DNA from: Trichodelitschia bisporula
Lineage: Eukaryota > Ascomycota > Dothideomycetes > Phaeotrichales > Phaeotrichaceae
NCBI GenBank assembly: GCA_010356995.1
Contig: ML996692.1
Location: 259,933 to 323,932 of the forward strand
Direction of reading: 5' to 3'
DNA: 64,000 nucleotides
In this document: positions 24,086 through 59,518 of the stretch, in pieces
Layout: each line of letters begins with the position of its first letter
How positions within the stretch are numbered: the first letter of the stretch is position 1
Translations under genes and position numbers: made by a program
Notes under the pieces: generated by a model
Databases searched by the model: none
The model's input: the letters and a program-made list of their open reading frames with translations, nothing else
Told to the model about the DNA's origin: nothing

Positions 24086-24383
24086 TGATGGAAAGATAAG
24101 GCAGGAGCATTGTTATGTCAGGAAGGAACAGGTTGGACGTGACGTAATGTGCTCGTAGTTGAAGGAAGGAGCATCGGAGGGCATTGGGTATTTATTCTTG
24201 AGAGTCTCTTCCTCTCTTCCTCTTCCTCTCTTCCTCTTCCTCTCTTCCTCTCTTCCTCTCTTCCTCTCTTCCTCTCTTCCTCTCTTCCTCTCTTCCTCTC
24301 TTCCTCTCTTCCTCTCTTTGTCTTTTTCTAATCTTCCACTTTCACAGTCGCCTGTTGCACATGGATGAGCCTTGCTCCCATTA
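24086..24383 (-). mobile_element. Solo-LTR-like repeat, copy D, with internal microsatellite expansion
   Basis: Read on the minus strand, this copy begins TAATGGGAGCAAGGCTC and shares the CAACAGGCGACTG block with copy C. It contains AATAAATACCCAATGCC and TTCCTGACATAACAATGCTC, like the other family members. It is longer (298 bp) because a CTCTTCC/CTTCC simple repeat fills the middle (about 24203-24320). I see no clear target-site duplication. It lies about 290 bp downstream of the stop of the minus-strand gene 24671-25258 and in the same orientation. Confidence 0.65.
24203..24320. repeat. CTCTTCC microsatellite
   Basis: There are about 118 bp of nearly uninterrupted CTCTTCC and CTTCCT units, alternating between 5-, 6- and 8-base periods. 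The repeat is an expansion of a purine/pyrimidine tract (GAGAGGAAG) that is present in only one or two units in the sibling copies at 49440 and 59370. Confidence 0.9.
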
Positions 24384-24670
24384 CCCCCGGTGCCGTCGTT
24401 GCAATTCCACTTGAAGTTAGAAGTCCATCACTTCCGAAGGAGAGAGTGAGGTATCAACATTGGAATGCCATGGTTGTTCAAGCTACTGACAGTAGTGATG
24501 ATTTATAGATGTAACCATGACTGTTGATGGTTGTCTTAAACAGGAACGCGATACACTCAATCAAAATGCAAAAGCCAGTCCAACTTTGCACGCTCTCCTG
24601 GTTCGGTTAAGCAAAAAGCCTCGTATGCGATCCTCAGTCCGCCAAAAGTCTCAGCAAGATCATCTTCCCT

Positions 24671-25258
24671 TCACGAACGCATGACATCCTCCATGTCCAG
24701 AAAGACAAGAACGAGATATCCGGTGCCAAAAAAGCGAAACTCGACGACTTTAGGATAGTGCCTCGCCACCTCCCAACAATCTCCATTCTCCACTCGTTCC
24801 GGGTTTGTGTTGTAGTTGAGCTTGTCATTGAAAGCGCGTCGGCGTGGCCGCCACGGCTCGTCGAGGGGAAAGGCATCCCCAAATTTGGGGAACGAAAGGA
24901 CTGGACAGCCACCCACTTTCAAAGTGCCGATGCGGTTAAGTCCATCGGGAATGAGCCACATTGTCTGGCCAGCCGGGTCGTGGTAGACTGCTACTTCATC
25001 GATATCGCCCAAGGCGAAAGAACGGTGAGGGTTGAAAAGGCGCTTGAATGGTTTGTTTCTTGAGAAGAATTTCTTGGCTTGAGCCTTGCAGTTGGCCCTG
25101 TGCTTCTCCTCCCAGGTGGTGGTTTTTTTTTGATCTGGTGATTAAGTTAGAGTTCCTGGCGCTGAGCTGCGCAAAGCTGCCTTACGGGGGATAACCACCC
25201 AGGGACAGTGCTGGGACTCAGGAGAGTGCGAGAGGGCAGCTGATTTGAAGGACTGCAT
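24671..25258 (-). CDS. Hypothetical protein of 178 residues, two exons
   Basis: I do not recognise the family. Exon 1 (25258-25186) starts MQSFKSAALSHSPESQHCPW. A 51-nt intron (25185-25135, GTAAGG...CTCTAAC...ACCAG) joins it in phase 1 to exon 2 (25134-24671). The protein has a basic N-terminal part (QAKKFFSRNKPFKRLFNPHR) and then a mixed hydrophobic/charged domain with blocks EVAVYHDPAGQTMWLIPDGL, VGGCPVLSFPKFGDAFPLDEPW and VEFRFFGTGYLVLVFLDMED. No signal peptide is evident, and no long transmembrane helix beyond the short hydrophobic TGYLVLVFL. Consistent codon patterning across a clean intron makes this a likely real gene. Repeat copy D lies downstream in the same orientation. Confidence 0.7.
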
Positions 25259-25816
25259 TGCCCGATGGTGGATTAACCGCTGTGACAGTGCAGGAGAGCC
25301 CTCCCCTTCGGCTCCCGGCGGCTGGCCTCTTCGTCAGTAGAAGGTACCAGGAGACGTTAGACCCGTTCTACCGGAAGGCGAGCCGCGAAAGCAATGGATT
25401 GACCGGGCATTAGTAATGGAAAGGTAACGTTATGAAGGCAAGTGATGGTGAGTTGGTGATTGATATGCAGAATACTCGAACAATGGGCAGCGAAGTGTGC
25501 TCTCGTCTCAACTTTGTATCGAGAGGGTGTGATCTCAGGACGATACGAAGTTAGGTGCAGTCCAACGTCAGTGTGGAAGGGGGACTCCAATACCTCTCGT
25601 CCCTACCCTGGGCGTCCAGAGGATGGTGCAACCAGCTTCAAGTCTCGTCGATCCTGGCGCAAAGGGTGCCAACACCATGGAAACCAATAAGCAGATCAAC
25701 CTGCCCGGTATCCATTCGTCTACCGACTCCGCCCAAAACAGCCCAAACATGAGGTGAAACAGAAGATCCATGCGGAGGATATCACCTACTCAACAGTAGC
25801 CATAAAGTAAAAACAC
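25259..25816. other. Spacer between the 178-residue gene and END3
   Basis: These 558 bp should contain the promoter of the minus-strand 24671-25258 gene and the END3 3' UTR. Short frames here have no support. Confidence 0.4.
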
Positions 25817-27076
25817 CTATGCCCTTTCCACCTCAATCTGCGCCCGCAAATCCTGAAGCACCCGCTCTCGCTCCCGCAAATGACCCTCCAACCCCTCAAC
25901 CTGCTCCCTCACAACCTCAATATCCGCCTTGAGCCCCTCCAGACCCCCCGTCTTTCCACCACTCCCCTCCTCCAGCCCCCTCAACTCCTTCTTCTTCCAC
26001 TCAAGCAACATCTCCAACTCGCGCTTCACAAGCGCCGGCCCCCCATCCCGCCTCCCCTTCCGCCTCCCCTCCACCGCCTTCTCCGACCTCGCAATCTTAT
26101 CCTCCAAATCCTTCAATTGCCGCTTTAGCCGCACACCCTCCCACTCCCCATCAGCAGGCGTGCCGCTGAAATCCGTGCCCCGGGCCCCAACGCCCCCAGA
26201 CCGATCCCCCACGCCCAGCCGCGAGAGATACGCATCTCCAAACCGGCCCTTCCGGCTCGTCGCATTGTCAGCGTCCTTATCCACCGCCCACCGCCTGCCG
26301 GGCTGCACCTTATCCACATCGTACTCAATGCGCCCCTGCTCGAAGCTGGACCTCAACGACGCAGGCACCGTGCGCGGAAGCCGGAACCCGTCCTGCCGCT
26401 GGGAGAGCAGGTGCAGGAACGCACACGCCGCGTCCTTATTTACCGCCTCCGCCTTCCCCGCAACGAGCGTCCACGCGACCCGGATTTCGCTGTCCGGCAC
26501 GTCGAGTTCAGCGTATAAGTCGTGCAGCGCGTCGAACGCGAGATCGCCGTGCGGCATCCGGTGCGCGGTGTAGATGGCTTCGTATTTAGAGCGGTTCGAC
26601 GGCGACATGTACCAGTCGAACCCGGACTTGAGCCCCGAGGACTCGTCCGGCGAGGCGGGACGCTCGAAGGCGGGTGCGTTGCCGGAGAGCGCATTGGTGG
26701 CTGTTATGAGGTGGGCTTTTGAGGCGGGGACGAGCCAGTCGGGGAGGGTCTGCGGGACGTCGGCGTATTCCTGACAAGATGATCAGCCTCGTTCACACTT
26801 TGCTGGCATACCCAGGGCGGGATGAAGACAACGCACCCCATTCACCAAGTCAAAGATAAGCCGCATCGCAACGCAGAACTCTTCAAAATCGAGGCTGCCA
26901 TCGCCGTCCACGTCCGCGAGGTCCCACACGCGCTCGAGCTGCGAGTCGCGAAGTTGGCTGTTCTTGAGGATGGGGGCGGCTTGGGCGCCGGAGAGGTGCG
27001 TGCCGCCGCCGGTGAGGGAGGAGAAGATTTCCCAGTACTTTTCGATCTCGGCTTGTTCTATGCGCTTGGAAGACAT
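25817..27076 (-). CDS. END3: Actin cytoskeleton-regulatory complex protein END3
   Basis: END3 works with Pan1 and Sla1 in actin-driven endocytosis at cortical patches. Exon 1 (27076-26837) encodes the first EH domain with the EF-hand loop [13 protein letters not shown] near residues 52-64. A 66-nt intron (26836-26771) leads to exon 2 (26770-25817), giving 397 residues. The second half holds the central block [20 protein letters not shown] and the [13 protein letters not shown] region. It ends with a charged coiled-coil C-terminus ([40 protein letters not shown]) typical of END3. Start and intron are supported by the conserved ends. The PAF-acetylhydrolase-like gene is upstream on the same strand, 287 bp away. 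Confidence 0.94.
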
Positions 27077-27363
27077 GGTGGTGGTGGTTGTTGCTGGGGA
27101 TGAGGGGTGAGCCGCTGAGGTTGGAGATGATGGGAGGTTGAGGTGTGGCTTGGGTGGTCTGTGCGTTTAGGTGGGCTGGTTGCCCGATTGGGAAGGGGGA
27201 CCTTGGAGATGGTCGAGATTCGAAAACTTGAAACTGAACTTTGTACCTTACAAATGTGAGAACTCCCAACTATCTAACAATTCTATGCCAATATACACCC
27301 GAACCTCTTGTACAATGCTCCATTCCTAAACCAATGATGCCCTCGCCGCAAGTCAACGCCGCC

Positions 27364-33464: not shown

Positions 33465-33486
33465 ATACCGTACCATACGTTTATTG

Positions 33487-33570: not shown

Positions 33571-34671
33571 AGAGAAGACGGCGGGAGATAGAGGTTAAAA
33601 GGACGTGGCATACGAGGTTCTGTCTCAAGAAGAAGGAACAAGTTGACCATGCGGACCTTCACTTCCTACAAGTCATCCGGAAGGAGCAAGCCTGTGAACT
33701 GTGAACCCTTTGGAAAACAACCGATGAGGCCGTCATGACCGACGGGCTGGCACTTACGAATCTGTTCCAACATGAGGAGCCTCCACAGGACGTATGGGTT
33801 TACCATCATTGAGTACCGTCTCAATGTCTTTTTGATCTGAAGTTCAAATGGAGGGCATTGCCTCCGATCTGCGGCTCTCTGATTTCATCGAGCGTGGCCA
33901 TGTTGGTATCTTAGTTCTAGGAGGCGTTGTAAGGGCCCGTTAGGGCTTTGTCCATCGCCGTTTTATGCCCATATCAAGTCCAAGGTTTGTCCGCTTCTCT
34001 GCGATGCTGATGAGATGTCAAGTCGAAGTTGAGCAATGCTCATTAATTAAGCAAGCGCAGATCATCGCCAACGTGACGTGCATGCCTGTCGCGCCGGCTA
34101 TTCAAGTTGGTGACGGTCGCACAGGGATGGTGTAGCCCCGAACCTCTCATTCCCTCCGCATCTTCATCACGTCACTCAGCCTTCAGCAAACAACCGCCCA
34201 AACAATCACCAAAACATGTTCCTCATGATCACAGGCTTCGTGCTTTGTATCCTCCTCGTCAAAGTGATGTCCCTCGGCTGCATCGCTCTCTACATGCTCG
34301 ACTCCTGAGATGTGAACCCACCGCATGAGGTCGGCATGAACGTGAGTTCACCCTCCCCCCCCCCCCCCCCCTCACACTAGCACAACGCACCCAAGCATCG
34401 ATGGCGACATCCGAGCCCAAATCCCACCCGATGTCCAATGCAAGCGTTGCTTATTATCGCACCCCGCTCCAATAGCCGACTAAAGAGACGCAGGTCGGCG
34501 GCCATTTAGCCGCGAGCACATCATTCGAGAAAAAGCAACCACCACGACGGCCCAGCACGCTTATGTACCTCTGGACGTCGTGGTTTGGACGTCACTCCAT
34601 CGACTCTTCCACCACCACCACTTTATTGACAAACGACACCACCGTCGCGAAACGGCGACACGATATACGCG
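33571..34671. other. Intergenic region upstream of the dioxygenase gene
   Basis: About 1.1 kb without a supported gene. There is a run of about 18 C at roughly 34350-34369. The last 150 bases before 34672 should be the promoter and 5' UTR of the dioxygenase gene. Confidence 0.4.
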
Positions 34672-36928
34672 ATGACGGCAACGAGCTCGCCAGCCACGTC
34701 GTCTTCCGACGAAGGCACCTTCACCTCCATCCCCGTGCTCTCCCTCGCGCAGGCCCGCGACCCAGCCACAAAGTCCGCATTCCTAACCGCACTCCGCGAC
34801 GCCCTACTCAACATCGGCTTCCTCTACCTCTCAGACACCGGCATCCCAGACGCCCTCTTCGACCAAGTATGCACCGAAACGCTCAACTTCTTCAACGAGA
34901 CCACCCTCCCGCTAGACGAGAAACTCAAAATCGAAATGAAGAACGAAAAGAGCTTCCTAGGCTGGAGCCGGGTGCGTTAATCTTTATATCTCTTCCCTAT
35001 GTTCTATTTCCTTGGCCCCTTCGTTTTGATTTCACTTTCACTACTGTCACTACTGTCACTGTCACCCGTCCCCGCTGTCAATACGTCAACCGACTCGCGC
35101 CCCTCCCCTCACTTACTCGCGCTGCATACCCTCCCTCCCCCGCCTTACTCGCCCCCCGCCCAAGCGCCCTTGGTCCCCTCCCCTCCACCCATTGCGCAGC
35201 ATACAGTGCATAGCATGCACTCCTCAATTTCTCTCCGTGGCGAACCGGCGCGCGGATCAGCGCTGCGTTCGCCCGTTTCTGCAAAGCATGCGCAGCTCAG
35301 GGGCGGCAACACTGCCGACGCGAGGGGCGGCTAGCGCGGCGTTGACGGCGAGGCCCTTGACCGCTGTCGCGCAGGCGGGAGCTGGCGATGGCGAATGCGA
35401 TTGCGTTCTATCATATCCTTGCGGCCCACGCGGCGGGCTTGGGCCTTGTTGGGAACCTTCTTCTTGGCCGCCTCGTGGTTGATAGGCAGCGCGGTGGCGG
35501 GCTAGATTGGCGACGCTGGTGGGCCGCGCGTTGATGCTGCTGTTGGTGCGGCACGGAGTGGCCGAAGGGGGGGTTCTGGAATTTGACTTTGAGACGTGGG
35601 GGGAGAGGGGTGGGGGGTCGTTGTTGGGGTGTAAGTTGGGTTTACGGTGGCGAGATGGTTTGTAAGATTGGGGGGTGGGTTTTGTTACCGGTCGTCAGTC
35701 AGCCTTGCGTGCGATTGTCGGTATGGTGATCATGGCTGAGGAAGCGGTTTGCTTCTGGGTTCTATGCCGATGGTTACGGTCTTGCTTTTTCTGCTGTTCA
35801 GCCTTGCTCGTACCCGGCCAGCCTTGGGCCTCGTTTTCTTTGCTTTCTCTTCGATCCACTCTTTCATTTTCAGCCTTGCTATTCTCCTTCCTATCTTCCT
35901 TCGATCTCTTTCATTTCAGTCTTGCTCTCATCTCCATCTTCAGCCTCGCCTCCACCCACCCACCAGCTAACCCCCGCAGCTCAACAACGAAACCACCGCC
36001 CACCGCCCCGATTACCGCGAACAACTCGACCTCAGCACTCCACAACCTCTCCCCACCCCAACAGATCCCCTGTACTGGAACCTCAAAGGCCCAAACCAAT
36101 GGCCCTCCCCCGCGCACCTCCCCTCCTTCCGCCCCGTCCTCGAGCAGTACATGTCCCTCATGTCCTCCCTCTCCACAACCTTCACCTCCCTCATCGCCGA
36201 AGCAATCTCCCTCCCCCCCACCGCCTTCGATTCCTTCTTCGACGCAAACCAGCAACACAAACTCAAAATCGTAAAATACCCGGAAGCACCCACCTCCTCT
36301 CTTAAACCAGAAGATCGCCAAGGTGTAGGCCCGCACAAAGACTCCATGCTCACGAGTTACCTCCTCCAAGCCTCCCCCCAACTTGGCCTCCAAGCGCAAA
36401 ACCGTGCCGGCGATTGGATTGATGTACCTCCCATCCCCCGTACCCTGGTGGTAGCTATCGGCCAAGGCCTCGAGGCACTGACCGCAGGCGTATGCGCCGC
36501 AACATCGCACCGCGTGCTCTCCCCCGCCAGAGGCTCCGGTCCGCGCTACTCCGTCCCCTTCTTCCAAGGCGTGTCCTACGATGCCCAGTTCGAAGCCGTC
36601 GAAGTACCGGCCCACGTACTGCAATTAAGGGATAGGTCGAGGGCGCGGGCGGGCAAAGACGACGTTGAGTTCACGTTCGTGAAGGGGCGGTGGGGACATT
36701 TGGGGGAGGCGACGCTGTGGAATCGGGTTAAGAGTCATCCGGATGTTGGGGAGCGATGGGTGAGTACCTCTGCTGTGTGTCGTGTGGGGGCAAAGGGCTA
36801 GTTCTAATGAGCGGTGCTAGTATCCGGAGCTGTTGGCGAAGATAAGGGAGACGCAGAAGGCGGAAGCTGAGGCGGCGAGTGCTGCTGCTGCTGCGCAGCC
36901 GGCGGCGGCGGCGGTGGTGGCTGCGTAA
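34672..36928 (+). CDS. 2-oxoglutarate/Fe(II)-dependent dioxygenase (isopenicillin N synthase-like)
   Basis: Three exons are inferred: 34672-34971, 35980-36759 and 36821-36928, giving 395 residues. Both junctions are phase 0, and the first joins FLGWSR to LNNETTAHRPDYREQ, which is the order seen in this family. The N-terminal DIOX_N part includes SIPVLSLAQA and LNIGFLYLSDTGIP. The 2OG-FeII domain has the iron ligands H-K-D near residue 218 (GVGPHKDSMLTSYLLQ) and a distal His in TSHRVLSP near 275, followed by the RYSVPFF 2OG-binding Arg/Ser. The first metal-binding triad is HKD rather than the commoner HTD. The tail is alanine-rich. Substrate is unknown. The first intron is 1008 nt, exceptional beside the 40-70 nt introns elsewhere. 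A solo-LTR-like copy begins 5 bp after the stop. Confidence 0.88.
34972..35979 (+). other. Unusually long intron (1008 nt) of the dioxygenase gene
   Basis: The donor is GTGCGT and the acceptor CCCCGCAG after a CAGCTAAC branch-like site. The last 170 bases are pyrimidine-rich and carry four similar TTCAGCCTTGCT-type words (near 35801, 35869, 35918 and 35938), each looking like a possible acceptor. There are short repeats of CACTACTGT near 35035-35060. No conserved protein segment is encoded in it. Confidence 0.75.
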
Positions 36929-36933
36929 GCCTT

Positions 36934-37164
36934 TGATGGGAGCACTGGTCTAACACGTTTACAACGGCAACTGTATATCCGTAAACTGAAGAATTGAAGT
37001 AGTAAGACGAGGAGAGGAAGAAGAATCAGAGACTTCTCAGGAACTTAAATACACTATGCCAAGTTATCCTCCTTTGCTCCTTCCCTCTATTCATGCGCTC
37101 ATTACATCATGCCCCCTAGTTCGCACCTTACTGACATAAGAATACTCATTCCATGTCCGCATCA
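36934..37164 (+). mobile_element. Solo-LTR-like repeat, copy B, with 5-bp target duplication GCCTT
   Basis: This 231-bp unit starts TGATGGGAGCA and ends CCGCATCA, giving TGATG...CATCA terminal inverted ends as in LTRs. It is flanked by the perfect direct repeat GCCTT (36929-36933 and 37165-37169). It shares ACTTAAATACACTATGCCAA and CTTACTGACATAAGAATACT-type blocks with the other copies. No retroelement body is attached. It sits directly behind the dioxygenase stop codon in the same orientation and so probably lies in that gene's 3' UTR. Confidence 0.82.
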
Positions 37165-37807
37165 GCCTTCGTGAACGAAACCCTAGCAAAGGAAGGCCAG
37201 CGGGACGAGGGTTGAACCGAACATTGTTACTTTCTCGCTCGCGCGAAATCTCAGCCGTAGTATGTAAGCGGGTCTTAGTTACAAGAAAAGCCAAATGCAT
37301 CCATAACAGCGTGCGTTCATTCGCTTGCTTTCAAACGTACACATCAGAAGCAGACCAAGGACCAAAAACACCGAATGATGAAAAGGTAGTCGCGAACAAT
37401 GGGGCCAACTTCTCTTCCCAGGCGATTAGCGGGAATCAAGGCCAACGAAGTGAAAACAAGCAAAACAACTCCATTCAAAACCCATTGCAAGGAAAAGAAG
37501 ACAAAGTCTACCCACCGCATCACATCATCCCCTCATCACCCTGGTGCCCTCCCTCCGCCTTCGCCGACCCATATGCCCAAAAGGATCATGTACAAGAAAA
37601 GACCATCTTCGCTCGCCATCGACCGTAACGCATCACCATCACCATCACCGATCCACCCCTTTTCCTCAACACCCATCGCGCCATGCCACACGCCATGCCC
37701 AGAACACCGCCTCCGCCAGGAGGTAAAGCAAGGAACCTCGTCATCGCAGCCGTATTACACCGTCCCACATCCCACACCAGCGCTTCACTCCCTCTTCATC
37801 ACCGCCC
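37165..37807. other. Spacer between repeat copy B and the bZIP gene
   Basis: These 643 bp should contain the 3' UTR of the minus-strand bZIP gene. Proline/histidine-rich frames on the plus strand are not supported. Confidence 0.4.
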
Positions 37808-39070
37808 TTAAACCCCCCCACCACCGCCCTGCATCCCAAACATCATCCCCTGCACCATCTCCCCCTCAAACCCCTGCCCCTGAAACCCTTCCGGCCCCCG
37901 CCCCGCAGACACAGGACTCGCATACCCCCCCGCACTCACCGCCGGATACATCATATGCTCGCCCGGCGGGAAGTGCATCCCATAAGGCTCGTACACGGGC
38001 GTATGCGGCACTGGAGAACTCGGGTGATCGGCTGGAGAACTAGCGGCGCTCTGGATGCCCAAAGCGTGTTGGTGGTGCAGGCCGGCGTGTTGAGCAGCGT
38101 GGTGCTGCGCGTGCCAGCGCATTGCCGGGCCCGGTGATGCGAGGCCCACTTCGCCTAGGCTGGGGGACCGGTCGGATGCGATGCTGGGCGAGTAGGCGGT
38201 TGGGCCGGGGGCGGACCATGCGTCGGCGGGCGTGAGTGGGGGAGGTGGGACGGAGCGGGGTGGGGCGGGTTGTTGGGGGGCGGGGGTTGCGAGGCGGAGG
38301 CGGCGGGGGGAGGGTGGTGGGGGAGGTGCTTCTGTGGGGATGCCTAGAGGGGTTAGTTGAGGGGTTCTGAGGGGAGGGCAAGGGGACGTACCATGGTCGT
38401 TTAGGGCCTTGAGGGCGTCGCGCAGGCGAGCGCGGAGCTGGGCGTTGTCCCGCTCTAGGTCTTCGGCGCGCTGGGCGAGGGGTGTGAGGTGGGCGATGCG
38501 GCGCTCGAGCTGCTCAATGTGGTCCTTGGTACGCTGGCGGATGGCTCGTTGAGCCTCGCGGTCGTTGGCACGCTTACGCTCGAGTTGCGCGGCAGTGAGG
38601 GTGGAGACGGAGCGGGTACCGGCGCGTGAAGGGCGACGCTTGGAGGTGGGCCCTGAGGTGGAGGATTTGGATGTCGTGCTCGAGGTTGAGGAGGCTGTGG
38701 TTGTTGTCGTGCTGATGGGGGTGAGGAGCGGCTTGGTGTGGCTCGACGGGGAGAACTTTTGCAGATACAACGGGGCGTGCGCGTGCATCGACGGGTCGGC
38801 CGACATGGCGTAGTAGGATGATGGGGATGGGGAGTAGTGGGGGAAGGACGAGGTTGGGAGTTGGACGGAAATCATGGGTGGGGTTGGAGGGAGCCTCGGA
38901 CGATGGCCCGGCGGGAATGTGGTTTGATTTTCGTTTAGGGGTGAGATGAGGTGGTTTGAAGCGGTGTTGCTATGCTGCTGATGCTGATGTTCTGGCGTTC
39001 CTTTGGCGGCCGAGAAGAGAGGTCCGTTGGTAGAGAAGAGAAGCGGGAGATTGAGCCTTTTCAGCCTCAC
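37808..39070 (-). CDS. bZIP transcription factor
   Basis: The frame of up to 420 codons contains a basic region RKRANDREAQRAIRQRTKDH followed by a leucine zipper (HIEQLERRIAHLTPLAQRAE, DLERDNAQLRARLRDALKAL). This subtype with N-D-R-E-A-Q-R-A-I-R is common in Pezizomycotina. The N-terminus is Ser/Thr/Pro-rich and the C-terminus is Pro/Gly/Met-rich. Translation may start at 39070 or, more conservatively, at the internal Met at 38875 (MISVQLPTSSFPHYSPSPSS). A 48-nt intron-like segment (38391-38344, GTACGT...CAACTAAC...CTCTAG) lies just after the zipper. It is a multiple of three without a stop, so both spliced and retained forms would be in frame. The target genes are unknown. Confidence 0.88.
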   Translation of the reverse strand: MRLKRLNLPLLFSTNGPLFSAAKGTPEHQHQQHSNTASNHLISPLNENQTTFPPGHRPRLPPTPPMISVQLPTSSFPHYSPSPSSYYAMSADPSMHAHAPLYLQKFSPSSHTKPLLTPISTTTTTASSTSSTTSKSSTSGPTSKRRPSRAGTRSVSTLTAAQLERKRANDREAQRAIRQRTKDHIEQLERRIAHLTPLAQRAEDLERDNAQLRARLRDALKALNDHGTSPCPPLRTPQLTPLGIPTEAPPPPPSPRRLRLATPAPQQPAPPRSVPPPPLTPADAWSAPGPTAYSPSIASDRSPSLGEVGLASPGPAMRWHAQHHAAQHAGLHHQHALGIQSAASSPADHPSSPVPHTPVYEPYGMHFPPGEHMMYPAVSAGGYASPVSAGRGPEGFQGQGFEGEMVQGMMFGMQGGGGGV

Positions 39071-45766: not shown

Positions 45767-45897
45767 ATGCTCGATCATCGGAGGGACAACCGGGTTGCGC
45801 GGGAGGGCGATACTCACGCAAGGCTGAGCCTGTAGCTCAACCAAGCATTGATATCGCCCGCCCGCGCTACCCCATTCCCTCCCCGATGATCGAGCAG
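45767..45897. repeat. Foldback (long hairpin) element 1
   Basis: The left arm from TGCTCGATCATCGG (about 45768-45812) is inverted in the right arm ending CCGATGATCGAGCA (about 45849-45896), separated by about 36 bp. The arms share about 80 percent of positions. A weaker match (GGCAAA...CTGCCAA versus GCAAAA...CGGCCAG) may extend the arms outwards by another 20-25 bp. No coding content. Confidence 0.75.
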
Positions 45898-46051
45898 GAA
45901 ATTGGCAGATTTACTTTGCCTACATCTTTTCCTCTCTTCAGCTTTCTATGTCTCTCTCTCGCTCTTCTCTGGCCAGCTCCTCATGTCCACATATTTTTGT
46001 CCAGTTCCCTCATCTGTCACATACACTGGTATGTACGAAACGGCAAAACAC

Positions 46052-46269
46052 CGACAACCAACACCTCACAGAACAGGTCTTGACCAAGCTGCGTAAGAAA
46101 GGCTGTCGAATGCGCCGGCGTATAAGACGCTAATAGGGATACAGGCTTCTATGTCGACGTATCTCGCGATATAGAAGCCGGTGTCATAATTTGCATCTTG
46201 CACTTCAGCTTCTCGACAGCCTTTCTTACGCTACTTGGTCAGGACCTGCATTGTAAGGTGTTGGTTGTT
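46052..46269. repeat. Foldback (long hairpin) element 2
   Basis: The outer arms of about 58 bp (46052-46109 and 46213-46269) carry CTGACCAAG/CTTGACCAAG and GCGTAAGAAAGGCTGTCGA in inverted orientation. An inner inverted pair GGCTTCTAT...ATAGAAGCC (near 46144-46180) continues the hairpin, so nearly the whole 218 bp can fold into one imperfect stem. No transposase or tRNA-like box is present. Confidence 0.82.
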
Positions 46270-46453
46270 ATATGCATAACACCAGTGGACGTCCTCTGCA
46301 GTCCCGAGGGAGCGCCATGCTGGGCTATCATATCCAAAACTCGGTTCAATCTTCTTCATCCAGCCCTGCGAGGCGCTTTGCGTATGCTCTTTGCTTTCCA
46401 AGCCGAACGTCTTACCTCTCGTCGGCGGCATGCGTGAAAGGACGAAGGCGTCG

Positions 46454-46586
46454 GGTAGCCATGTGAGGATACTTGGTAAAGTCAAACTCATCGTAAGCTC
46501 TGGCTCATCCTAGCGGAGAAAGCACGGCCAATATGGGCCAGAGCTTATGATGAGTTTGAGTTACCAAGTATCCTTACATGGCTACC
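46454..46586. repeat. Foldback (long hairpin) element 3
   Basis: The arms of about 51 bp (46454-46504 and 46537-46586) are inverted copies with only a few mismatches: GGTAGCCATGTGAGGATACT against the complement of AGTATCCTTACATGGCTACC. The loop is about 32 bp. It resembles a small MITE or a hairpin RNA locus. Confidence 0.85.
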
Positions 46587-46589
46587 GGA

Positions 46590-48870
46590 CGTGGAGAATG
46601 AAGAGCCCGAGGACGGCACGAGTGCTGACGTCATTCAAGGCGCCGATGGAAGAAGCCGATTTTCTCGCAATCATCAAGTCCAGATCCGAGCAGAGATTCC
46701 CAATAACATACACAAACAAACAACTTTTGAAACCCTTGCACTTGATGTCCATCACAGGTGAAGTTAATGTAATCATGTGACTACGGATGGTATGTAACAA
46801 GCGGGTAACCGCATCGAAGGCTATCTCGACTTCTGCACAACCTCATCCCACAACATAGCAATGACTCCTCTCATCCATCCCAATTCTCCCTGATCACTAA
46901 CCACACCAGCACCTCTCACTTCTCGTCTCCCTCTCCAACAACCACCACACCCCATCACACCGCCCCCCTCCGTCATAGTCCACCACCCCAAGCCCCCGCC
47001 AAAACCACACTATCGACGGCCCCCCGCCTATCAGCCACGCCCCGCTGCACCGAAGCCCAACGAAGCCATAGCGAAGCCATTCCGAAGCCCAGCGAAGGCC
47101 ATCCGAAGCCCAGCGAAGGCCATCCGAAGCCTCACGCCCCTCACTGCACCGAAGGCCAGTAGAAGCCCGCGAAAGCACCCTCATCTTCCACCCCTCCCCA
47201 CCTCATCTGCACTCCCCAACCAAAAAACACAAGCGCACCGTCACCAGTTGAAAACGCACGTCCCACCCCGCCTCCACCAGCGCCACCGGCTGCATCCGGT
47301 AACCCCCCAGAAGGCGCCACACCCCGCCTCTTTTCTCACCCTGGCTTCACCCCGGTTCCCCACGGCGCCACCGCGCGAACCGGTCCGATATTCCTGGGCC
47401 CCGGCTCGGAGGCGCGTGGCCGGGCGCGGGAGTGAACCCGGGGGCGCGGTGCTGGTGGGAAAAGAAAGGGAGGCGGGGAAGTTGCGAACGGCGGTGTGTT
47501 GCTTTTTCCTGCTATACCGTTATGCAAACACGTTGTGCAAATCGCACAAAGTCCGAAGTACGTACCGCACCTGCCTTTCCAACTCACAAAACCGGTGATA
47601 TCAGCAAAGCTTCAAGGCCGGACACGATGATCGCCCTCACCCGCCCACGTGGCCCAGCGTCTAGTGTTTGAGATTCTGCACCGCGGCGTTTCGCCCGCGG
47701 TCACGCGTCGGCCTGCGCCAGCGCCGCGGCGACCGGCCGAAAGACATGCATGCGCATCGCATTCAACCAAACTCCTAGCGGCGCCGCGCGGCGATGAGGT
47801 CAGCGCCCCTACCTCCGATCTCCGCAGCCTCCGTCAGCCGGTTCCCGGAGCTGTCTGGGGAGGACGGCGCCTAGCCTGCCGCGCGCCCTGCCTTCCCTAT
47901 TCTGCATGAGGATCTGACGTCGGCCGCAGGGCAAATTACGGATGAGTCGTTGGTGTGGGCCTGGTAGGCTCGGTATGGCAAGGCGGTGCGAGGTCGGCGT
48001 TGTTGGGCGGTTTGAGATGATGGTGCGCGGGCCGCAAGGGGAGGGTGCGATGCATATGCACGCGTAGGCTGGGCTGCGCAGCGGGCCTGGGACCTGCCTT
48101 CAGGCGCGGTAGCCGGTCGGCCCCTCGCGGAAGGTGCTGGGCTGCGGTGCAGGAAGCTATGTTTGGGGTATAAGAGTCGTGTTAATGGTGCGGGGCCCGA
48201 AACCTGGGGCGTATTGGGTGGGGGGCGGTGGGGGCTGTTACAGCCTTGCGCGTTCTTTGATGATGGTGAGTGGGATGACGGGACGATGGAGGGTCGTTCA
48301 TGCTGATTGTTGGTGTTTCGTGTTCGGGCATTGCGGATTCAGGGAATGTGATGAGATTGTGATAGGAGCTGTGTTTTAGGCGGGAATTCGTGAGGAAGTT
48401 TAACTGAGTTTGTAGACATGCGGATGGGCCTTTCCGATGATTGAGTTTGTGGACCTGGTAAGGCTGAGGGTGTTCGAATGAGTAGTTGCTCGTCTGGCGT
48501 GCTGAGCTGTGAGGTAGTGAGTCCTTGATGCTGTTCGAGAGCCGAGCCGTCCAGCGGTTGAGTTTGTGCCCGGCAAGGCTGAGTACCTCACTTCGTCCGT
48601 CATGGATGAGATTGCTCTCACCTACCGCACTTCGACGCGAGAAACCACGCCCAAAGCATTGGTGAAGGGTCCAGGTAGATGATAACCCGAGAAGGGATCC
48701 ATGCTAATGGCTTTGGGCAGTAGTCTTTGAATGCTCGCTCGCTGCGCTAAAGGCCAACCTCCTCTACGTCGATATATATCAAGGTCTGCGGACTCTTAAC
48801 ACCGTGACTCAGAGAAGATGAAGGCAAATGGTCTTACAAATCTGGCATGCTGGATCGCATACGCTTGAAC
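46590..48870. other. Gene-poor interval, continued
   Basis: About 2.3 kb contain no supported gene. Visible items are GAAGCC-rich tandem units near 47050-47130 and two degenerate copies of TTGAGTTTGTG...AAGGCTGAG near 48442 and 48558. Confidence 0.4.
47050..47130. repeat. Degenerate 10/21-bp GAAGCC tandem repeat
   Basis: Units of CGAAGCCCAGCGAAGGCCAT are repeated twice exactly, with shorter variants before and after (about 47051-47130). Confidence 0.85.
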
Positions 48871-49475: not shown

Positions 49476-51128
49476 CTACGCTTCCCTATCCGGCTCCCCA
49501 AGCAAATGGCGAAACAACTGCCCAACAACAAAACCACTCCGCTTTGGATACCGCGTCCGCTCCGGATCGTCGTAATCGACATACGTGACGCCAAAGCGTG
49601 TCTCATACCCATCCGCCCATTCGAAGTTACTACACACGTTAGTCAGGTTTCCCGTTAACGCACTGAGTACTCACTCCATCAAACTCCAAGCAAAGTACCC
49701 CCGCACATCCACCCCATCCTCCTCCCTCGCCTTCACCATCTCCTTGATATACTCCTGAAAGAACCGCACCCGGAACCCGTCTTCCACGGCCTTTTCGCGC
49801 GGCAGGTCATTCTCTCCTTTGATACACGTCCCATTCTCCGTCACTAGGATAGGCGGATTCCCATACCGCTCCTTAATCCACACCAGTAACTTCCTGAACC
49901 CAGGCGCATGCGGCGTCAACCACCCGGCGGCAGTCTCCGGCCCAATCCTCACGCCATCTACATTAACCTTCTCAATCCACAACCCGCCCGCCTCATCATC
50001 AGCCGGCGGATCAGTCCTATCGCGGATGAAGTCCGCACAGTAATGATTCATCCCATAGAAGTCATTACTGCCCTGCACCAACCTCCTCTCCTCCTCCGTA
50101 AACCGCGGCAACCGCTCTCCGAGCCTCTCCCGCATACTCGCCGGGTAATCGCCCAGGTACACCGGGTCCCCAAACCAGCCAGTAAACCACTCGCGCCGCC
50201 TCTGCGCCGCAGCAACATCCGCTTCACACCGCGGATCAAAAGGCTCCGCCCAGTCGCCGTTCAGCGTGATCCCCACCACGCCCCCAAACAGCAGCTTGTA
50301 TTCCTCCCTAAACACCTTCGCCGCCTTGCCATGCGCAACGAGCAGACTGTGCCCAACCCTCCAAACCTCCGTCTTCCGATCCCCTTCCTCCGGCCCGCGG
50401 CCCGGCGCAAACGTCCCGCCATGATACCCCGGCACGGCCACGCAAAACGGCTCATTGATCGTAATCCAATTCCTGACCAAATCGCCAAACGCCTCAAAGC
50501 ACACCCTCGCATAATTCTCAAAATCCTCCACAAACTCGGCTTGGTTCAGCGGGCCGCCGTACCGGTCATGCAGCGCTTGTGGCAGGTCCCAGTGAAACAG
50601 CGTGACGAGCGGCTCGATGCCTGCGTCCCGCAGGGCCTCGATGAAGGCCCGGTAATGATGGATTGCCGATTTGTTCACGGGATCGTTGCGGCCGCCGAGC
50701 GGGATGATGCGGCTCCAGCTCAGTGAGAAGCGATAGGCTTTTGCGCCGTATTGCTTCAACAGGTCGATGTCCGCGGGCCACTTGCGGTAGCTCTCGCATG
50801 CGATGTCGCCCGTTGCACCGTGCCGGACCTTTCCCGGCGTCGCGGCGAAGGTGTCCCAGATGGAGGGCAAGCGGCCGTCGGCGGACGTGCTGCCTTCTAT
50901 TTGGTAACTGAGACGGAGTTAGCATGAGCCAGAAGGGCGATGGAGGACTAACGCTGCGGTTGCATAGCCCCATAGGAAGTCCTTTGGAAGCACGCCCTTG
51001 GGCAAGTCGGCGGGGACATCGGGAATGTCCTTCAGCGCTTCTGGTTCATACAGCCGCGTGAAGACCTCCTTGTCGACACCCTCCGCAGCCGGAGGCGTGT
51101 CCCCCTCCTCAATGTAGAGCGACGGCAT
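49476..51128 (-). CDS. GH1 beta-glucosidase, intracellular type
   Basis: Three exons are inferred: 51128-50953, 50907-49675 and 49629-49476, with two 45-nt introns (GTTAGT...TCTCAG and GTGAGT...GTGTAG), giving 520 residues. The first junction restores GYATAAYQIEGS and the second SLMDNFEWADGY, both invariant in glycoside hydrolase family 1. The acid/base Glu is in WITINEPF (near residue 206) and the nucleophile in ILVTENGTC (near 415). The N-terminal 45 residues (MPSLYIEEGDTPPAAEGVDK onward) precede the barrel and contain no signal peptide, so hydrolysis of cellobiose and other aryl- or alkyl-beta-glucosides probably occurs in the cytosol. The gene ends EPDREA and stop, exactly where LTR-like copy E begins. 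Confidence 0.95.
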
Positions 51129-51596: not shown

Positions 51597-54500
51597 CTAC
51601 ACCTCCAAATCCCTAAGCGGGACATACGCCGCGCTTCCCCTCCGCGCACCGCGCCCGCCCTTGACCCTCTCCACCAACCCCCCAATCCACTCCCGCACTT
51701 CCCACGCGGGCTCAACTTTCTCCCCCGCCTGCCCCGCGCGCTCCGGGTCCAGCACCGCCACGGACATCCACCGCGGCCGTCTCCACCACCTCAACGCCAA
51801 AGAACTACAAACAACGCTAACACTCGAGCACGCCATCGCCGCCCCCGCCGCCATCGGATGCAACGACAATCCCCAAGGCAAAAAGAACCCCATCGCAAAC
51901 GGCAACCCAACCAAATTGTACCCACACGCCCAAATCAGATTCGCCCTTATCCTACCAAATATCGCGCGGCTCAGATGCAGCGCCGCGGGCACGGCGAGCA
52001 GATCGGATGAGGTGGAGGACATGAGCACCACGTCCGCGGCTTCCATTGCTACGTCGGTCCCGGAACTGAGGGCGATGCCGATGGCGGCGGTGGCGAGGGC
52101 GGGGGAGTCGTTTATGCCGTCGCCGACCATGGCTACGACCTGCCCCTTACCGCCCTGGGAGGTGGGGAGTTGGAGGGTTTCGATGAGGGATCGCTTCGTG
52201 GAGGGTGTGCAGGAGGCGTGCACGGCGGAGGGGGGGATGCCGACTTGTGCCGCGACGATCAGGGCGGGTGCGAGGGCGTCGCCGGTTACGATGCTGGAGG
52301 ATATGCCGAGGCGGGAGAGAGCGAGAACGCACGCCCGCGCTGAGGGCTTGAGGGTGTCGCTCAGCGCGAGCGAACCGGCGTAGGCGCCGTCGATGGCGAC
52401 GTGGATTGTCGTCGTGCCCGCACTCGGCAGCCTACTGGGGTGCGGTGCGCTCAGCGTGTCGGTCGAGTCCCCGGCCCCATCGGCAGCGGGCACGCCCAGC
52501 GTATCCACCGGGACGGGCACGCCTTGTTCTGCCAGGAAGGAGGGATTACCGAGGACGACGCGGTGGCGCGTACGCTGGGCGTCGATGGCTGCTTCGACGC
52601 TCGCGATGATGCCTTTGCCGACTACGGCTTCGAAATCGCCCGCTGAGCCGTCGGGCGCGGCGTCGGTGCCGAGGTGCAGGTGTTCCCGCGCTGCCGCGAC
52701 GATGGCGCGGGCGACGGGGTGTTCGGAGGACATTTCGGCGAGCCCGACGAGGGTCCACCAGAGCCTCTGCGCGGCGGGGGCGGAGAACGAGGAAGTTATG
52801 GAGGCACGCGAGACGCGCATGTGTCCCACGGTCAGCGTGCCCGTTTTGTCGAACACGACGTGGGTTATTTTGGTTGCGGTTTCGAGGGCCGCGCCGCCTT
52901 TGATCAGAATCCCCTTCTCGGCGCCTACGCCCGTGCCTACCATCACCGCGGTGGGTGTGGACAGGCCCAGCGCGCATGGGCACGCGAAGACGATGACGGA
53001 AATGCAGAGTTTGACGCATACCATAGTCTTCCCGCCTGACTCGGCGGCAAGGAAGATGGGCGGGGGGGTGGGGAGGAAGTGGCTGAGGATCATCCAGGCG
53101 ACGAAAGTCGCGGCGCCGAGGGTTATGATTACGGATACAAAGACGCCGGCGACTTGGTCGGCTATGCGCTGGATCGGCGCGCGGCTGGTTTGGGCTTCTT
53201 GCACGAGGCGCACGATTTGGCTGAGCTGGGTGTCGCGTCCGGCGCGCGTGACTAGGAAATCGACGCGGCCTTCGCCGTTGACGGTGCCGGCCATGAGGAG
53301 CGAGTCCTTCTTTTTGAGGATGGGCATTGCTTCGCCCGTCACCATGCTTTCGTTCACATAGCTCTCGCCGCGCAGGACCGTGCCATCCGCCGGGATCTTG
53401 TCGCCGGGGCGCAGGAGGACTACGTCACCGACCTCGATCAGTTCGGTGGGAATAACGCGCTCGGCCGAGCTGTCTCCGCTGATACTCTTCCGCGGTCCCG
53501 AGGCCTTCTCGTCATACGAATCCCATTCCTCGGCTGCTTTGGCGGCGGCGATGGGGTCGGTGTAGATAGTCGCCATGGAGGGGGCGAGGGACATGAGGTG
53601 CGAGAGGGCCTTAGACGTCTGCCCCTTAGCGCGGTTCTCGATGTAGCGCCCGAGGGTGATGAATGTGATGAGCATGGAGCTGGTGTCGAAGACGGTGCTG
53701 GGGCGGGAGTGCGGCGGGTAGATAAGCGAGACGAGCATGGCGGCGACGCTGAAGAAGAAGGCTGCGGACGTGCCTAGTACGACGAGGACGTCCATTGTTG
53801 GGGAGCCGTGGCGCATAGATTTGTAGGCTGAGATGTAGAAGCGCCGGCCGATGCCGAATTGGACTGGGATTGTGAGGGCCAGACAGACTACGTCGCCGAG
53901 CCAGAGACCTTGGGTGAGTGGTATGCTGCCGTAGTCCAGGAAGGGTAAAAGCATGGGGAAGACCATCGATGTGAAGAAGACGGGCAGCGCGAACATGACG
54001 GACGTGTGGAATGCGCGGCGCCACTCTTGGATCTCCTTCGTCTTCGCCAGTGACTCCAGCTGCGCGTTGTTGTCGTCCGCATCGGCCACCAGAGCGTTGT
54101 ACCCTGCCGCCTCGACCGCCTCCACGATGGCGCGCAGGCCGACCGTCGCCGGACGATGCGTGATGGCGGCGCGCGAGGTGAGAAAGCTGACCGACACAGC
54201 CGACACGCCAGCCATGCCCGTGATGAGCGCCTCCAGCCCGCTCGCCGCCTCCACATCCCTCATCCCATAGACCTTGAGGTAACTCGTCGCATTTGCCGTC
54301 GACTGCGCCAGCACATCAACGCTCGACACAATCCGCGCATCAAACCCACGCTCCTCAATAATCTCCGCCACGCGCTGCGCCGAAAGCTTCACCGGGTCGT
54401 GAACGACAACAGCGCGCTCCGCCAGCAAACTGATGTTAAACTGCATAACGCCGTCGAGATCGCGGAACCCGCCTTCAACCGCAGCCGTGCACGCGCCGCA

Positions 54501-55166
54501 CGTCATGCCCCCGATAGCAACCGTCGTGCTCAGCGTGCTCTGCTGCGCCGCGCCTTTTCTTCGTCGTTTCTGCTGGGCCACCGCCTCGGCCGTCTGTGTA
54601 TCCGTGACGGTCGCCTCAAAGCCCGCATCCTCGATAATTTCCGCGATGCGCGCTGGCGGCAGCACACTCGCATCGTGTTCCACAACCGCGCGCTCCGCCA
54701 GCAGCGAAATGCTAAACGAACGCACGCCCGCGACATTCCGAAACGCACCCTCGACCGCCGCCGTACACGCACCACACGTCATCCCGCCCACCGCCACCGT
54801 CGTGGTCACCAGCCCTTTATCCGTCTCCCCCAACAGCAGCGCGTCCTCTCCATCGCTCTCCTCCACCTCTTCCAGCGGGATATCAGACGCCAGCACCTCG
54901 GCGTCAAACCCGCGCTCCTCAATGAGTTGTCGCACACGCTCGGGGGATACGCGGGCCGGGTCGTGCACCACGACCGCGCGCTCCATGACCAGGCTCACGG
55001 AGACGCTGGCGACGCCGGGGAGGGAGGCGAAGGCGGCCTCGACGGAGGAGGTGCAGGCGCCGCAGGTCATGCCTTCGACGCGGAGGGTCGTGGTCGCCAT
55101 GTGGGGTGTTGTCATGGCGGATTTATCGGGGGGAGGAGGGGCGCAGGGCCGCGACGGAGGGGGCAT
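51597..55166 (-). CDS. CCC2: Copper-transporting P1B-type ATPase (CCC2/ATP7-like)
   Basis: CCC2 pumps Cu(I) from the cytosol into the Golgi lumen to load multicopper oxidases. The 1189-residue single-exon protein starts with heavy-metal-associated domains. Three have intact GMTCGAC copper sites (near residues 34, 129 and 221). A fourth (KVYGMRDVEAASG) keeps the fold signature but lacks the CXXC. The transmembrane and catalytic core follows: TGEAMP near 610, the CPC ion-binding motif (FACPCALGLSTPTAVMVGTG) near 730, phosphorylation site DKTGT near 775, SEHPVARAI near 815 and GDGINDSPALA near 1015. A second possible start is at residue 18 (MTTPHMATTTLRVEGM), which begins just before the first metal-binding domain. 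A chaperone such as Atx1 would deliver copper. Confidence 0.95.
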   Translation of the reverse strand: MPPPSRPCAPPPPDKSAMTTPHMATTTLRVEGMTCGACTSSVEAAFASLPGVASVSVSLVMERAVVVHDPARVSPERVRQLIEERGFDAEVLASDIPLEEVEESDGEDALLLGETDKGLVTTTVAVGGMTCGACTAAVEGAFRNVAGVRSFSISLLAERAVVEHDASVLPPARIAEIIEDAGFEATVTDTQTAEAVAQQKRRRKGAAQQSTLSTTVAIGGMTCGACTAAVEGGFRDLDGVMQFNISLLAERAVVVHDPVKLSAQRVAEIIEERGFDARIVSSVDVLAQSTANATSYLKVYGMRDVEAASGLEALITGMAGVSAVSVSFLTSRAAITHRPATVGLRAIVEAVEAAGYNALVADADDNNAQLESLAKTKEIQEWRRAFHTSVMFALPVFFTSMVFPMLLPFLDYGSIPLTQGLWLGDVVCLALTIPVQFGIGRRFYISAYKSMRHGSPTMDVLVVLGTSAAFFFSVAAMLVSLIYPPHSRPSTVFDTSSMLITFITLGRYIENRAKGQTSKALSHLMSLAPSMATIYTDPIAAAKAAEEWDSYDEKASGPRKSISGDSSAERVIPTELIEVGDVVLLRPGDKIPADGTVLRGESYVNESMVTGEAMPILKKKDSLLMAGTVNGEGRVDFLVTRAGRDTQLSQIVRLVQEAQTSRAPIQRIADQVAGVFVSVIITLGAATFVAWMILSHFLPTPPPIFLAAESGGKTMVCVKLCISVIVFACPCALGLSTPTAVMVGTGVGAEKGILIKGGAALETATKITHVVFDKTGTLTVGHMRVSRASITSSFSAPAAQRLWWTLVGLAEMSSEHPVARAIVAAAREHLHLGTDAAPDGSAGDFEAVVGKGIIASVEAAIDAQRTRHRVVLGNPSFLAEQGVPVPVDTLGVPAADGAGDSTDTLSAPHPSRLPSAGTTTIHVAIDGAYAGSLALSDTLKPSARACVLALSRLGISSSIVTGDALAPALIVAAQVGIPPSAVHASCTPSTKRSLIETLQLPTSQGGKGQVVAMVGDGINDSPALATAAIGIALSSGTDVAMEAADVVLMSSTSSDLLAVPAALHLSRAIFGRIRANLIWACGYNLVGLPFAMGFFLPWGLSLHPMAAGAAMACSSVSVVCSSLALRWWRRPRWMSVAVLDPERAGQAGEKVEPAWEVREWIGGLVERVKGGRGARRGSAAYVPLRDLEV

Positions 55167-57164: not shown

Positions 57165-59288
57165 ATGGATCCCTTCAAGCTCCTAACGCGGTCCACGAAC
57201 CTGAACAAGAAAGCTTCGGAGAAGAGAAAGACGGCAAATGCGCAAAAGCCTCTTCCGAGCAGTGGCCAGCTTCCGAATTCGCGGCGCGAAGTCGATAGTG
57301 ATGAAGACCACACTGGCAGTGACGAGCATGGCACGGGGAGGTTGACGCCCCTCCGCAAGCGAAAACGCAACAGTGGCACTGCTGCCGCAGAAGAGTTGCC
57401 GGCCGAGCTCGATTTTTTTGGAGAAAGCCAGGCGCAGCAGCAGGGACGACACAAGCGGAGCAAAGGCATCCCCGAGGGCGACGCTTCTTCCTCCAAAACT
57501 CCCGAACTCCCTGCGGGCGAGACGCTGGGTTTCGAGAGATGCAAGAAACTCTTGAAGGGATTCAAGGCCAAAGTCATAGTACTCCGGAATCCCGTCCTGA
57601 CCACAGACACCCCCATCCTCGCGACCGAGTCCGACCAGGAACTGGCGGAGAGCAAGCACAAAGACAGCCTGTATCCAAGTCCGCTGCGTGCCTTTAAGGA
57701 GCTAAGCGCTCATTACGGCATATCGGCGAAACTAGTTAAAAACATCCTCAACTACGGTTACCAGATGCCAACTCCAGTCCAGTCCACCACACTCCCCCTC
57801 CTCTTGGAGGGCCCAGCGTATCGGCATCATGGGAAGAAGTGGCACCGTCACTCGCCCGGCACTGGTAGCCACTTGATTACCATAGCTCCCACTGGCAGCG
57901 GCAAAACGCTTGCTTTTCTGATACCCATCTTCAGCTCCTTGTACCAGGAGCGCTACGTCCAACTTAAAGAGAACCCCTCGTCGACGCTCAAGGAGGATGG
58001 CCCGTACGCCGTTGTGCTGGCGCCAACAAAGGAGCTGGCATATCAAATTGCCAACGAGGGGCGGAAGCTGGCGCTCAACACCGGCATTCGGATCTCTGTC
58101 ATGACCAAGGGAATGAGGATCGGCTCCACGCGCGATGGGGAAGAGGCGGAATCTGAGGATAACGACGAGGAAACCGGCGCGGGGAAATGCAACCCCAATG
58201 CGCCGGTCGTGAAATCTCACGTTCTTGTCTCAACGCCAATGGCCATGCTCAACGCTCTCCGGGAAGAAGATGGGTCTGTAATCGACCTCAAATCGACCCG
58301 CTTCCTCGTCCTCGACGAAGCAGATATCCTCCTCGACCCGCTCTTCCGCGAGCAGACTATCGCCGTGTGCAAAGCGCACACAAGCCCCAGCCTCCGCGTC
58401 TCCCTCTGGTCCGCCACCATGTCCTCCTCAATCCAAGAACTAGCCGAATCCCTCCTCACACCTCACCCCGGCCCCACCTTCCGCATCATCATCGGCCTCC
58501 AAGACTCCGCCCTCCCCACAATCTCCCACAAGCTAACCTATTGTGCAACCGAGCAAGGCAAGCTCCTCGCCCTCCGCCAACTCCTCGCCCCCACCGCCCC
58601 ATCCTCTCGCTCCAACGCAACCCAATCCCTCCGCCCCCCCTTCCTCATCTTCACACAAACAATCGCCCGCGCCAAAGCCCTCCACGCGGAGCTGCGCTAC
58701 GACATTCCCGCTGCAGCGGGCGGCTCCTCGCGCATTGCAGCGCTGCACTCCGAACTACCAGATAGGATGCGCTCGCGGATCATGGCCGATTTCCGTAGGG
58801 GCGAGATCTGGGTCATCATCACTACGGACCTAATGGCGCGGGGCCTGGACTTTGCGGGCTTGAACGGCGTGGTGAATTACGATGTCCCGAACTCGGCGGC
58901 GACGTATGTACACCGTGCGGGGCGGACGGGGCGCGCGGGGCGTGAGGGCGGCGTCGCGGTTACGCTGTTTACGGAGGCGGATGTGCCGTATGTGCGGTCT
59001 ATTGCGAATGTGATCCGGACGAGCGAGAAAGCGGAGGGGAAGGAGGTACTTAGCGTGCCGGATTGGTTGATGGAGTGTTTGCCCGCGCCGAGTAAGCAGG
59101 CTAAGAAGGATCTGAAGTTGCATGGGGTGAAGGAGCGACGCAGTGGGAAGGAAGCGATGATTAGCACGAAGAGCAGTTATGATCGTCGGGCGAGGGTGAA
59201 GAAGATGGAGATGAGGGGGGCGAAAGGGAGGGTTGGTAAGAGCAGGGCCTTGGAGGATAAAGATGATCAGGGTGAGGCGGCGGACTAG
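57165..59288 (+). CDS. ROK1: ATP-dependent DEAD-box RNA helicase ROK1 (DDX52-like)
   Basis: ROK1 acts in the nucleolus on pre-18S rRNA and in release of snR30 from pre-ribosomes. The 707-residue intronless protein starts MDPFKLLTRSTNLNKKASEK, as fungal ROK1 does. It shows the Q-motif region (GYQMPTPVQSTTLPLLLEG), motif I APTGSGKT near 243, motif Ia APTKELAYQ, DEAD box VLDEADILLD near 383, motif III SAT (LWSATM) near 417, motif IV (FLIFTQTI), motif V (TTDLMARGLDFAG) and motif VI HRAGRTGRAGR near 582. There is an acidic insertion (RIGSTRDGEEAESEDNDEET) between motifs Ia and II and a basic tail. Start and stop are clear. LTR-like copy A begins 15 bp after the stop. Confidence 0.95.
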   Translation: MDPFKLLTRSTNLNKKASEKRKTANAQKPLPSSGQLPNSRREVDSDEDHTGSDEHGTGRLTPLRKRKRNSGTAAAEELPAELDFFGESQAQQQGRHKRSKGIPEGDASSSKTPELPAGETLGFERCKKLLKGFKAKVIVLRNPVLTTDTPILATESDQELAESKHKDSLYPSPLRAFKELSAHYGISAKLVKNILNYGYQMPTPVQSTTLPLLLEGPAYRHHGKKWHRHSPGTGSHLITIAPTGSGKTLAFLIPIFSSLYQERYVQLKENPSSTLKEDGPYAVVLAPTKELAYQIANEGRKLALNTGIRISVMTKGMRIGSTRDGEEAESEDNDEETGAGKCNPNAPVVKSHVLVSTPMAMLNALREEDGSVIDLKSTRFLVLDEADILLDPLFREQTIAVCKAHTSPSLRVSLWSATMSSSIQELAESLLTPHPGPTFRIIIGLQDSALPTISHKLTYCATEQGKLLALRQLLAPTAPSSRSNATQSLRPPFLIFTQTIARAKALHAELRYDIPAAAGGSSRIAALHSELPDRMRSRIMADFRRGEIWVIITTDLMARGLDFAGLNGVVNYDVPNSAATYVHRAGRTGRAGREGGVAVTLFTEADVPYVRSIANVIRTSEKAEGKEVLSVPDWLMECLPAPSKQAKKDLKLHGVKERRSGKEAMISTKSSYDRRARVKKMEMRGAKGRVGKSRALEDKDDQGEAAD

Positions 59289-59303
59289 CGGAGTAACCGA
59301 TGG

Positions 59304-59518
59304 TGACGGGAGCAAAGCTCTAACACAGGCAACGGCAACTGTGTTAACTCAAGATTGAAGTATAAGAGCAAGAGAGGAAGGGAGTCAGAGGCTCTTGAGA
59401 CTAAATACATAATGCCAAGTATCCTTCATTGCTCCTTCTTCCTGTCATGTGTTTATTACATCATGGCCCTTGGTATGTACCTTCCTGACATAACAACGCT
59501 CCTTCCATGTCCACATCA
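59304..59518 (+). mobile_element. Solo-LTR-like repeat, copy A
   Basis: This 215-bp unit starts TGACGGGAGCAAAGCTC and ends TGTCCACATCA. It contains TTGAGACTAAATACATAATG, CCAAGTATCCTTCATTGCTC and CTTCCTGACATAACAACGCT, which match copies B-E. A TATAAGAGC stretch near 59371 could be a relic promoter of the element. No exact target duplication is visible. It lies immediately behind ROK1 in the same orientation. Confidence 0.7.

Follow-up and report, generated by a model that had tools for sequence, protein, structure and literature searches.

A 64-kb stretch of contig ML996692.1 (called the window below, meaning the whole stretch of DNA that was analyzed; GC content 57.8%) contains five copies of one repeat family, and it is the position of these copies relative to genes, rather than their orientation, that stands out, in a pattern that is suggestive but small (n = 5). 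We think it fairly probable that the repeats are old, non-coding solo long terminal repeats (LTRs), one of them truncated, of a single LTR-retrotransposon family, that the insertions on the 3' side of genes are those that survived, and that LTRs supply most of the 3' untranslated region (UTR), and probably the polyadenylation (poly(A)) site, of three genes encoding a DEAD-box helicase, a 2OG-Fe(II) dioxygenase, and a GH1 beta-glucosidase. The copies were recovered by self-comparison and with a profile of the copies at E-values of 2e-37 to 4e-66, whereas control searches with the profile gave best E-values of 0.66 (20 shuffled windows) and 0.47 (the window reversed). They are listed here as putative LTRs with their target site duplications (TSDs). 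The strand is the provisional U3-to-U5 direction, which is opposite to the label used in the first-pass annotation of this DNA.

59304-59518, minus strand: copy A, full-length LTR of 215 bp, no TSD; 15 bp past the stop of the ROK1-like helicase gene, with the stop of a convergent PCI-domain gene 513 bp away
36934-37164, minus strand: copy B, full-length LTR of 231 bp; 5 bp past the dioxygenase stop (the gap is exactly the TSD), with the stop of a convergent bZIP-like gene 643 bp away
36929-36933, no strand: left TSD of copy B, GCCTT, directly after the stop codon TAA (36926-36928)
37165-37169, no strand: right TSD of copy B, GCCTT
15033-15244, minus strand: copy C, full-length LTR of 212 bp; 327 bp past the SLX9 stop and 3,803 bp from the 5' end of the next gene
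15028-15032, no strand: left TSD of copy C, TCGGT (ACCGA on the other strand)
15245-15249, no strand: right TSD of copy C, TCGGT (ACCGA on the other strand)
24086-24383, plus strand: copy D, full-length LTR of 298 bp with an expanded CTCTTCC-type microsatellite inside, no TSD; 1,433 bp past the END3 stop, 1,821 bp from a 5' end, and 287 bp from a '178-residue' open reading frame (ORF)
49329 to about 49463, plus strand: copy E, LTR truncated on the GH1 side, with clear homology ending about 12 bp short of the GH1 stop (49476-49478)

For every one of the five copies the closest gene end is a 3' end (P 0.012 with all gaps included). With the long gaps and copy E dropped, this remained true of 4/4 copies, with P 0.019 for gaps of up to 6,000 bp and 0.058 for gaps of up to 4,500 bp. 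A stop codon is no more than 15 bp away from three of the five copies (P 4e-6, with the truncated copy E counted) and from two of the four untruncated ones (P 3e-4, 6e-4, and 1e-3 for three choices of gaps), the 15-bp limit having been chosen after the data were seen. Additionally, convergent gaps hold two of the five copies (A and B) and make up 12.5% of gap length. The first-pass annotation had placed copy A 15 bp after the ROK1-like stop, copy B 5 bp after the dioxygenase stop, and copy E next to the GH1 stop, and these placements were confirmed by the measured distances and by a check of the GH1 stop codon. The end of copy E was set by eye, from clear identity that runs to about 49463; the nhmmer alignment reaches 49485, across the GH1 stop. 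Copy D had been placed about 290 bp past a 178-residue gene; the distance holds, but the ORF is without a clear coding signal and the nearest supported stop is that of END3. Copy C, the exception by orientation in that annotation, is also 3' of a gene.

A poly(A) signal does not fit into a 3' UTR of 5 to 15 bp, so transcripts of the helicase, dioxygenase, and GH1 genes, if made, must enter the LTR, and copies A, B, and E probably form the 3' UTRs of these genes. An LTR that starts no more than 15 bp past the stop codon would supply most of the 3' UTR and would probably also supply the poly(A) site. The gene-sense strand of such an LTR would present the A-rich, poly(A)-signal-like motif TAAATACA 55-117 nt past the stop (it starts 113 nt past it in A, 117 in B, and 55 in E), followed by pyrimidine-rich sequence. 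This motif occurs four times in the window, once within each of copies A, B, C, and E, and in none (0) of 11,876 overlapping 300-nt stretches of non-coding sequence free of the element; AATAAA or AATACA is present in 5.9% of these stretches. Poly(A) sites in yeast are described as using a degenerate A-rich element, with AAUAAN preferred, and flanking U-rich elements (PMC12667328). The first-pass annotation held that four of the five copies lie in probable 3' UTRs with matching orientation; the 3' UTR part of this stands, firmly for A, B, and E, and the orientation part does not.

Position was scored on a map of 17 genes built from ORFs, codon scores, and Pfam matches, with the '178-residue' ORF excluded. 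The map has deserts at 29-34.6 kb and 38.9-49.3 kb, which may conceal genes. The features beside the copies are as follows.

57165-59288, plus strand: DEAD-box helicase gene, ROK1-like (DEAD 6.3e-27, Helicase_C 9.7e-23)
60032-60870, minus strand: PCI-domain gene, convergent with the helicase gene, right of copy A (PCI E-value 2.7e-4, just below Pfam's cut-off)
34600-36928, plus strand: 2OG-Fe(II) dioxygenase gene, supported by Pfam, made up of several exons whose boundaries, like the start, are approximate; stop TAA at 36926-36928
37808-38878, minus strand: bZIP-like gene, convergent with the dioxygenase gene, right of copy B (bZIP_1 E-value 4.1e-5, below Pfam's curated cut-off)
49476-51116, minus strand: GH1 beta-glucosidase gene (PF00232 4.5e-124), start approximate
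15572-16138, minus strand: SLX9 gene, upstream of copy C (PF15341 2.6e-26)
25817-27110, minus strand: END3 gene, closest supported 3' end to copy D (PF12761 4.1e-33)
24671-25141, minus strand: '178-residue' ORF of the first-pass annotation, 156 codons open, unsupported as coding

The name ROK1 is a presumptive one taken over from the first-pass annotation, and the PCI-domain gene is presumably CSN7-like. By eye, the GH1 frame has an ordinary C-terminus after a last intron. The '178-residue' ORF is doubtful as a real gene, judged from its codon score of -0.058 per codon, against a range of +0.074 to +0.250 in 10 of the window's genes; six of these trained the score, and the other four score +0.130 to +0.250. 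Its rank of 4 of 50 by coding score among the ORFs outside the gene map makes it doubtful rather than rejected, and it has no Pfam match.

The sense-orientation pattern is not supported by these data: there are five copies, the gene beside D is doubtful, the direction of the LTR is not fixed, and A and B lie in convergent gaps, so that either orientation is sense to one neighbor. Four of the five copies share one orientation relative to the genes named by the first-pass annotation (P 0.375 by coin flips), and sense-downstream concordance on the gene map has a P of 0.10; enrichment of the sense orientation was therefore rejected as not significant. The ends of the copies are near-palindromic and give no LTR direction. 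Read in the provisional direction, all five copies are purine-rich with repeated GGA before a GTATTTA core and pyrimidine-rich after it. This base composition resembles that of a fungal promoter and tends to favor a U3-TATA-R order opposite to the plus direction of the first-pass annotation. With that order C would be sense to SLX9, and the other four copies would be antisense to the genes named there. The gene-strand core TAAATACA, which on the opposite strand reads TGTATTTA, may be the TATA box of the LTR itself; if so, the LTRs would be antisense to the genes and a leftover promoter would fire into the 3' end of the gene.

A solo LTR is the best reading of the repeat, as suggested by its ends and by the duplications that flank it. 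The four untruncated copies all start with TGATG, and thus with TG, and finish with C(A/G)T(C/T)A, which gives a CA end in A and B. Exact 5-bp TSDs, within the 4-6 bp range that was sought, flank two of the four (GCCTT at B and ACCGA at C), and B and C are best read as solo LTRs because of them. As no internal region was recognized here, the assignment is to an LTR-retrotransposon family that may be copia or gypsy. The 28 distinct ORFs that were scanned, which is not a full six-frame scan, gave no Pfam match to reverse transcriptase, integrase, or gag. Sequence flanking A and E on the outside was considered as a remnant of an internal element; its similarity is at chance (P 0.65), and the idea was rejected. 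The repeat could instead be a miniature inverted-repeat transposable element (MITE), a non-autonomous DNA transposon for which a promoter direction would be meaningless, and its size (212-298 bp), the lack of visible coding sequence, and the near-palindromic ends would fit this. However, inside the ends the inverted similarity does not exceed chance in three of the four untruncated copies (shuffle P 0.82 for A, 0.02 for B, 0.83 for C, and 0.29 for D), which counts against a MITE, an element that would have terminal inverted repeats longer than 2-5 bp. The TG starts and the 5-bp TSD also resemble those of an LTR, and we consider a MITE unlikely.

The copies share 64-75% pairwise identity. One variant of the terminal stretch is common to A and B and another to C and D. 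It is therefore probable that several subfamilies, rather than one, were mobile, and identity gives no age. In a check for repeat-induced point mutation the transition/transversion ratios were 0.86-2.06, and, of 36 C-to-T and G-to-A departures from the majority sequence, 9 were of the type that such mutation leaves (C to T within CpA, G to A within TpG), which is taken as no clear sign in either direction. The microsatellite of copy D (24205-24340) is apparently expanded from the pyrimidine tract of the LTR itself. Weak matches to the LTR model at 45233-45360 (E-value 0.01) and 19796-19879 (E-value 0.11) are possibly degenerate copies; they are far below the five copies, yet above the best matches in the shuffled and reversed windows. 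The nearest supported gene to the first of these is 4 kb off and, if it is a real copy, it weighs against a 3' bias. Exact-pattern searches for the family gave 0 matches in a collection of genome contigs and 0 in viral contigs, and one viral contig shares a stretch of only 19 bp, which was taken as chance.

The position of the copies may be explained in several ways, and five copies are too few to separate targeting from survival. Chance insertion combined with purifying selection and deletion, in which insertions into promoters and coding sequence are lost and DNA is shaved down to the stop codon, is given about an even chance. The truncation of copy E finishes about 12 bp from the GH1 stop, orientation is at chance, and transposable element fragments beside genes are about equally numerous downstream and upstream (116,722 and 118,871, respectively) in an account of 625 fungal genomes (PMC6416283), all of which is consistent with this explanation. 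The exact TSD of copy B, in contrast, indicates a direct insertion 5 bp past the stop with no shaving, and a clean insertion of this kind is what would be expected if the integrase of the family targeted the 3' ends of RNA polymerase II (Pol II) genes just beyond their stop codons. The share of untruncated copies that have a stop no more than 15 bp away (2/4, P 3e-4 to 1e-3) and the excess of copies nearer a 3' end (5/5, P 0.012; 4/4 without long gaps and copy E, P 0.019 and 0.058) point the same way. Such an integration preference is nevertheless quite unlikely, as there are only five copies and a threshold set after the data were seen, C and D lie well away from stops (327 and 1,433 bp), and fixed insertions reveal survivors rather than targeting. 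Additionally, the fungal preferences described in the account cited differ: Tf1 and Tf2 insert nearer 5' ends, and a small set of Tca2 insertions favors an interval upstream of start codons (PMC7175516).

The first-pass annotation had also raised the possibility that the LTRs are domesticated terminators that are under selection and sense-oriented. Domestication would be consistent with the geometry, which makes LTR-derived 3' UTRs likely, and with the A-rich motif on the gene strand. However, the sense direction is not established, the base composition favors the opposite one, and the orientation statistics are null, and this version is decidedly improbable. We give a similarly low probability to the proposal that the family integrates at the termination side of Pol II genes, immediately past their stops, with an antisense strand that would carry a ready-made poly(A) signal; insertion would then swap the host 3' UTR with little harm, in a mirror image of the promoter-targeting Tf1.

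Several observations weigh against our favored reading of solo LTRs that survived on the 3' side of genes and serve there as 3' UTRs. Copies C and D terminate in TA and not CA, A and D are without a TSD, no paired LTRs around gag-pol (and hence no full-length element) were found within the window, and no internal region was recognized next to any copy. The proximity of copy E to its stop is a product of truncation, and C and D are far from stops. The motif TAAATACA is common to the copies by descent and thus counts as one observation rather than three independent events, and A-rich motifs are not restricted to LTRs, as any of 12 A-rich hexamers is present in the 300 nt downstream of 3/10 other genes. 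Finally, the best TATA matches score higher on the other strand in A, C, and D, on the provisional strand in B, and on neither in E; the scan leans slightly to the strand of the first-pass annotation, against the provisional direction.

Like the LTRs of GalEa, a Ty1/copia element of ascomycetes whose LTRs have a mean size of 235 bp, the repeats are of similar size, have a 5-bp TSD and a TG start, and end in CA in A and B; they differ from the GalEa LTRs, which start with TGT, in their TGATG start and in the TA end of C and D (PMC5445492). Like Tf1 and Tf2 of S. pombe they are intergenic LTRs near Pol II genes, but Tf1 and Tf2 are described as favoring 5' sides whereas all five copies here are closer to a 3' end (PMC7175516). 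As noted above, two of the five copies here lie in convergent gaps; the retrotransposons and solo LTRs of S. osmophilus are reported to be somewhat enriched in such gaps, which account for about 15% of intergenic length and contain about 24% of 78 of them (PMC10085805). Among the matches listed in a literature search (titles and abstract openings), neither this family nor a stop-codon preference in a filamentous fungus was described.

The gene families present (SLX9, END3, UTP11, GH1, and 2OG dioxygenase), some of them in genes plainly with introns, identify the contig as fungal. The best solved relatives of the GH1 protein are 3ahy, 5jbk, 5bwf, 6efu, and 4mdo, which we take to be ascomycete enzymes, with 2e3z, presumably a basidiomycete enzyme, behind them; judged from these relatives the host is probably a filamentous ascomycete. 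No tRNA was found in a search across the 64-kb window. Between the bZIP-like and GH1 genes a ten-kilobase stretch (38.9-49.3 kb) is without a supported gene, and five ORFs there have no Pfam match. Three long hairpin palindromes lie side by side in this desert at 45741-45923, 46054-46268, and 46449-46591. They are 71, 74, and 82% self-complementary with predicted RNA fold energies of -107, -130, and -105 kcal/mol, respectively, and may be fold-back elements or give rise to double-stranded RNA. A P-type ATPase gene contains an internal direct repeat (54336-54532 and 54612-54808) and four HMA-domain stretches.

As matters stand, the repeats make up an ordinary family of solo LTRs, and their positional pattern, although suggestive, is small; a family that abuts 3' ends would be unusual, and five copies are no proof of one. 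If stop-proximal insertion were true genome-wide, it would represent a safe-haven strategy at the 3' ends of genes, distinct from the targeting known from LTR elements of yeast (RNA polymerase III and promoters), and stop-proximal LTRs would be a source of replaceable 3' UTRs.

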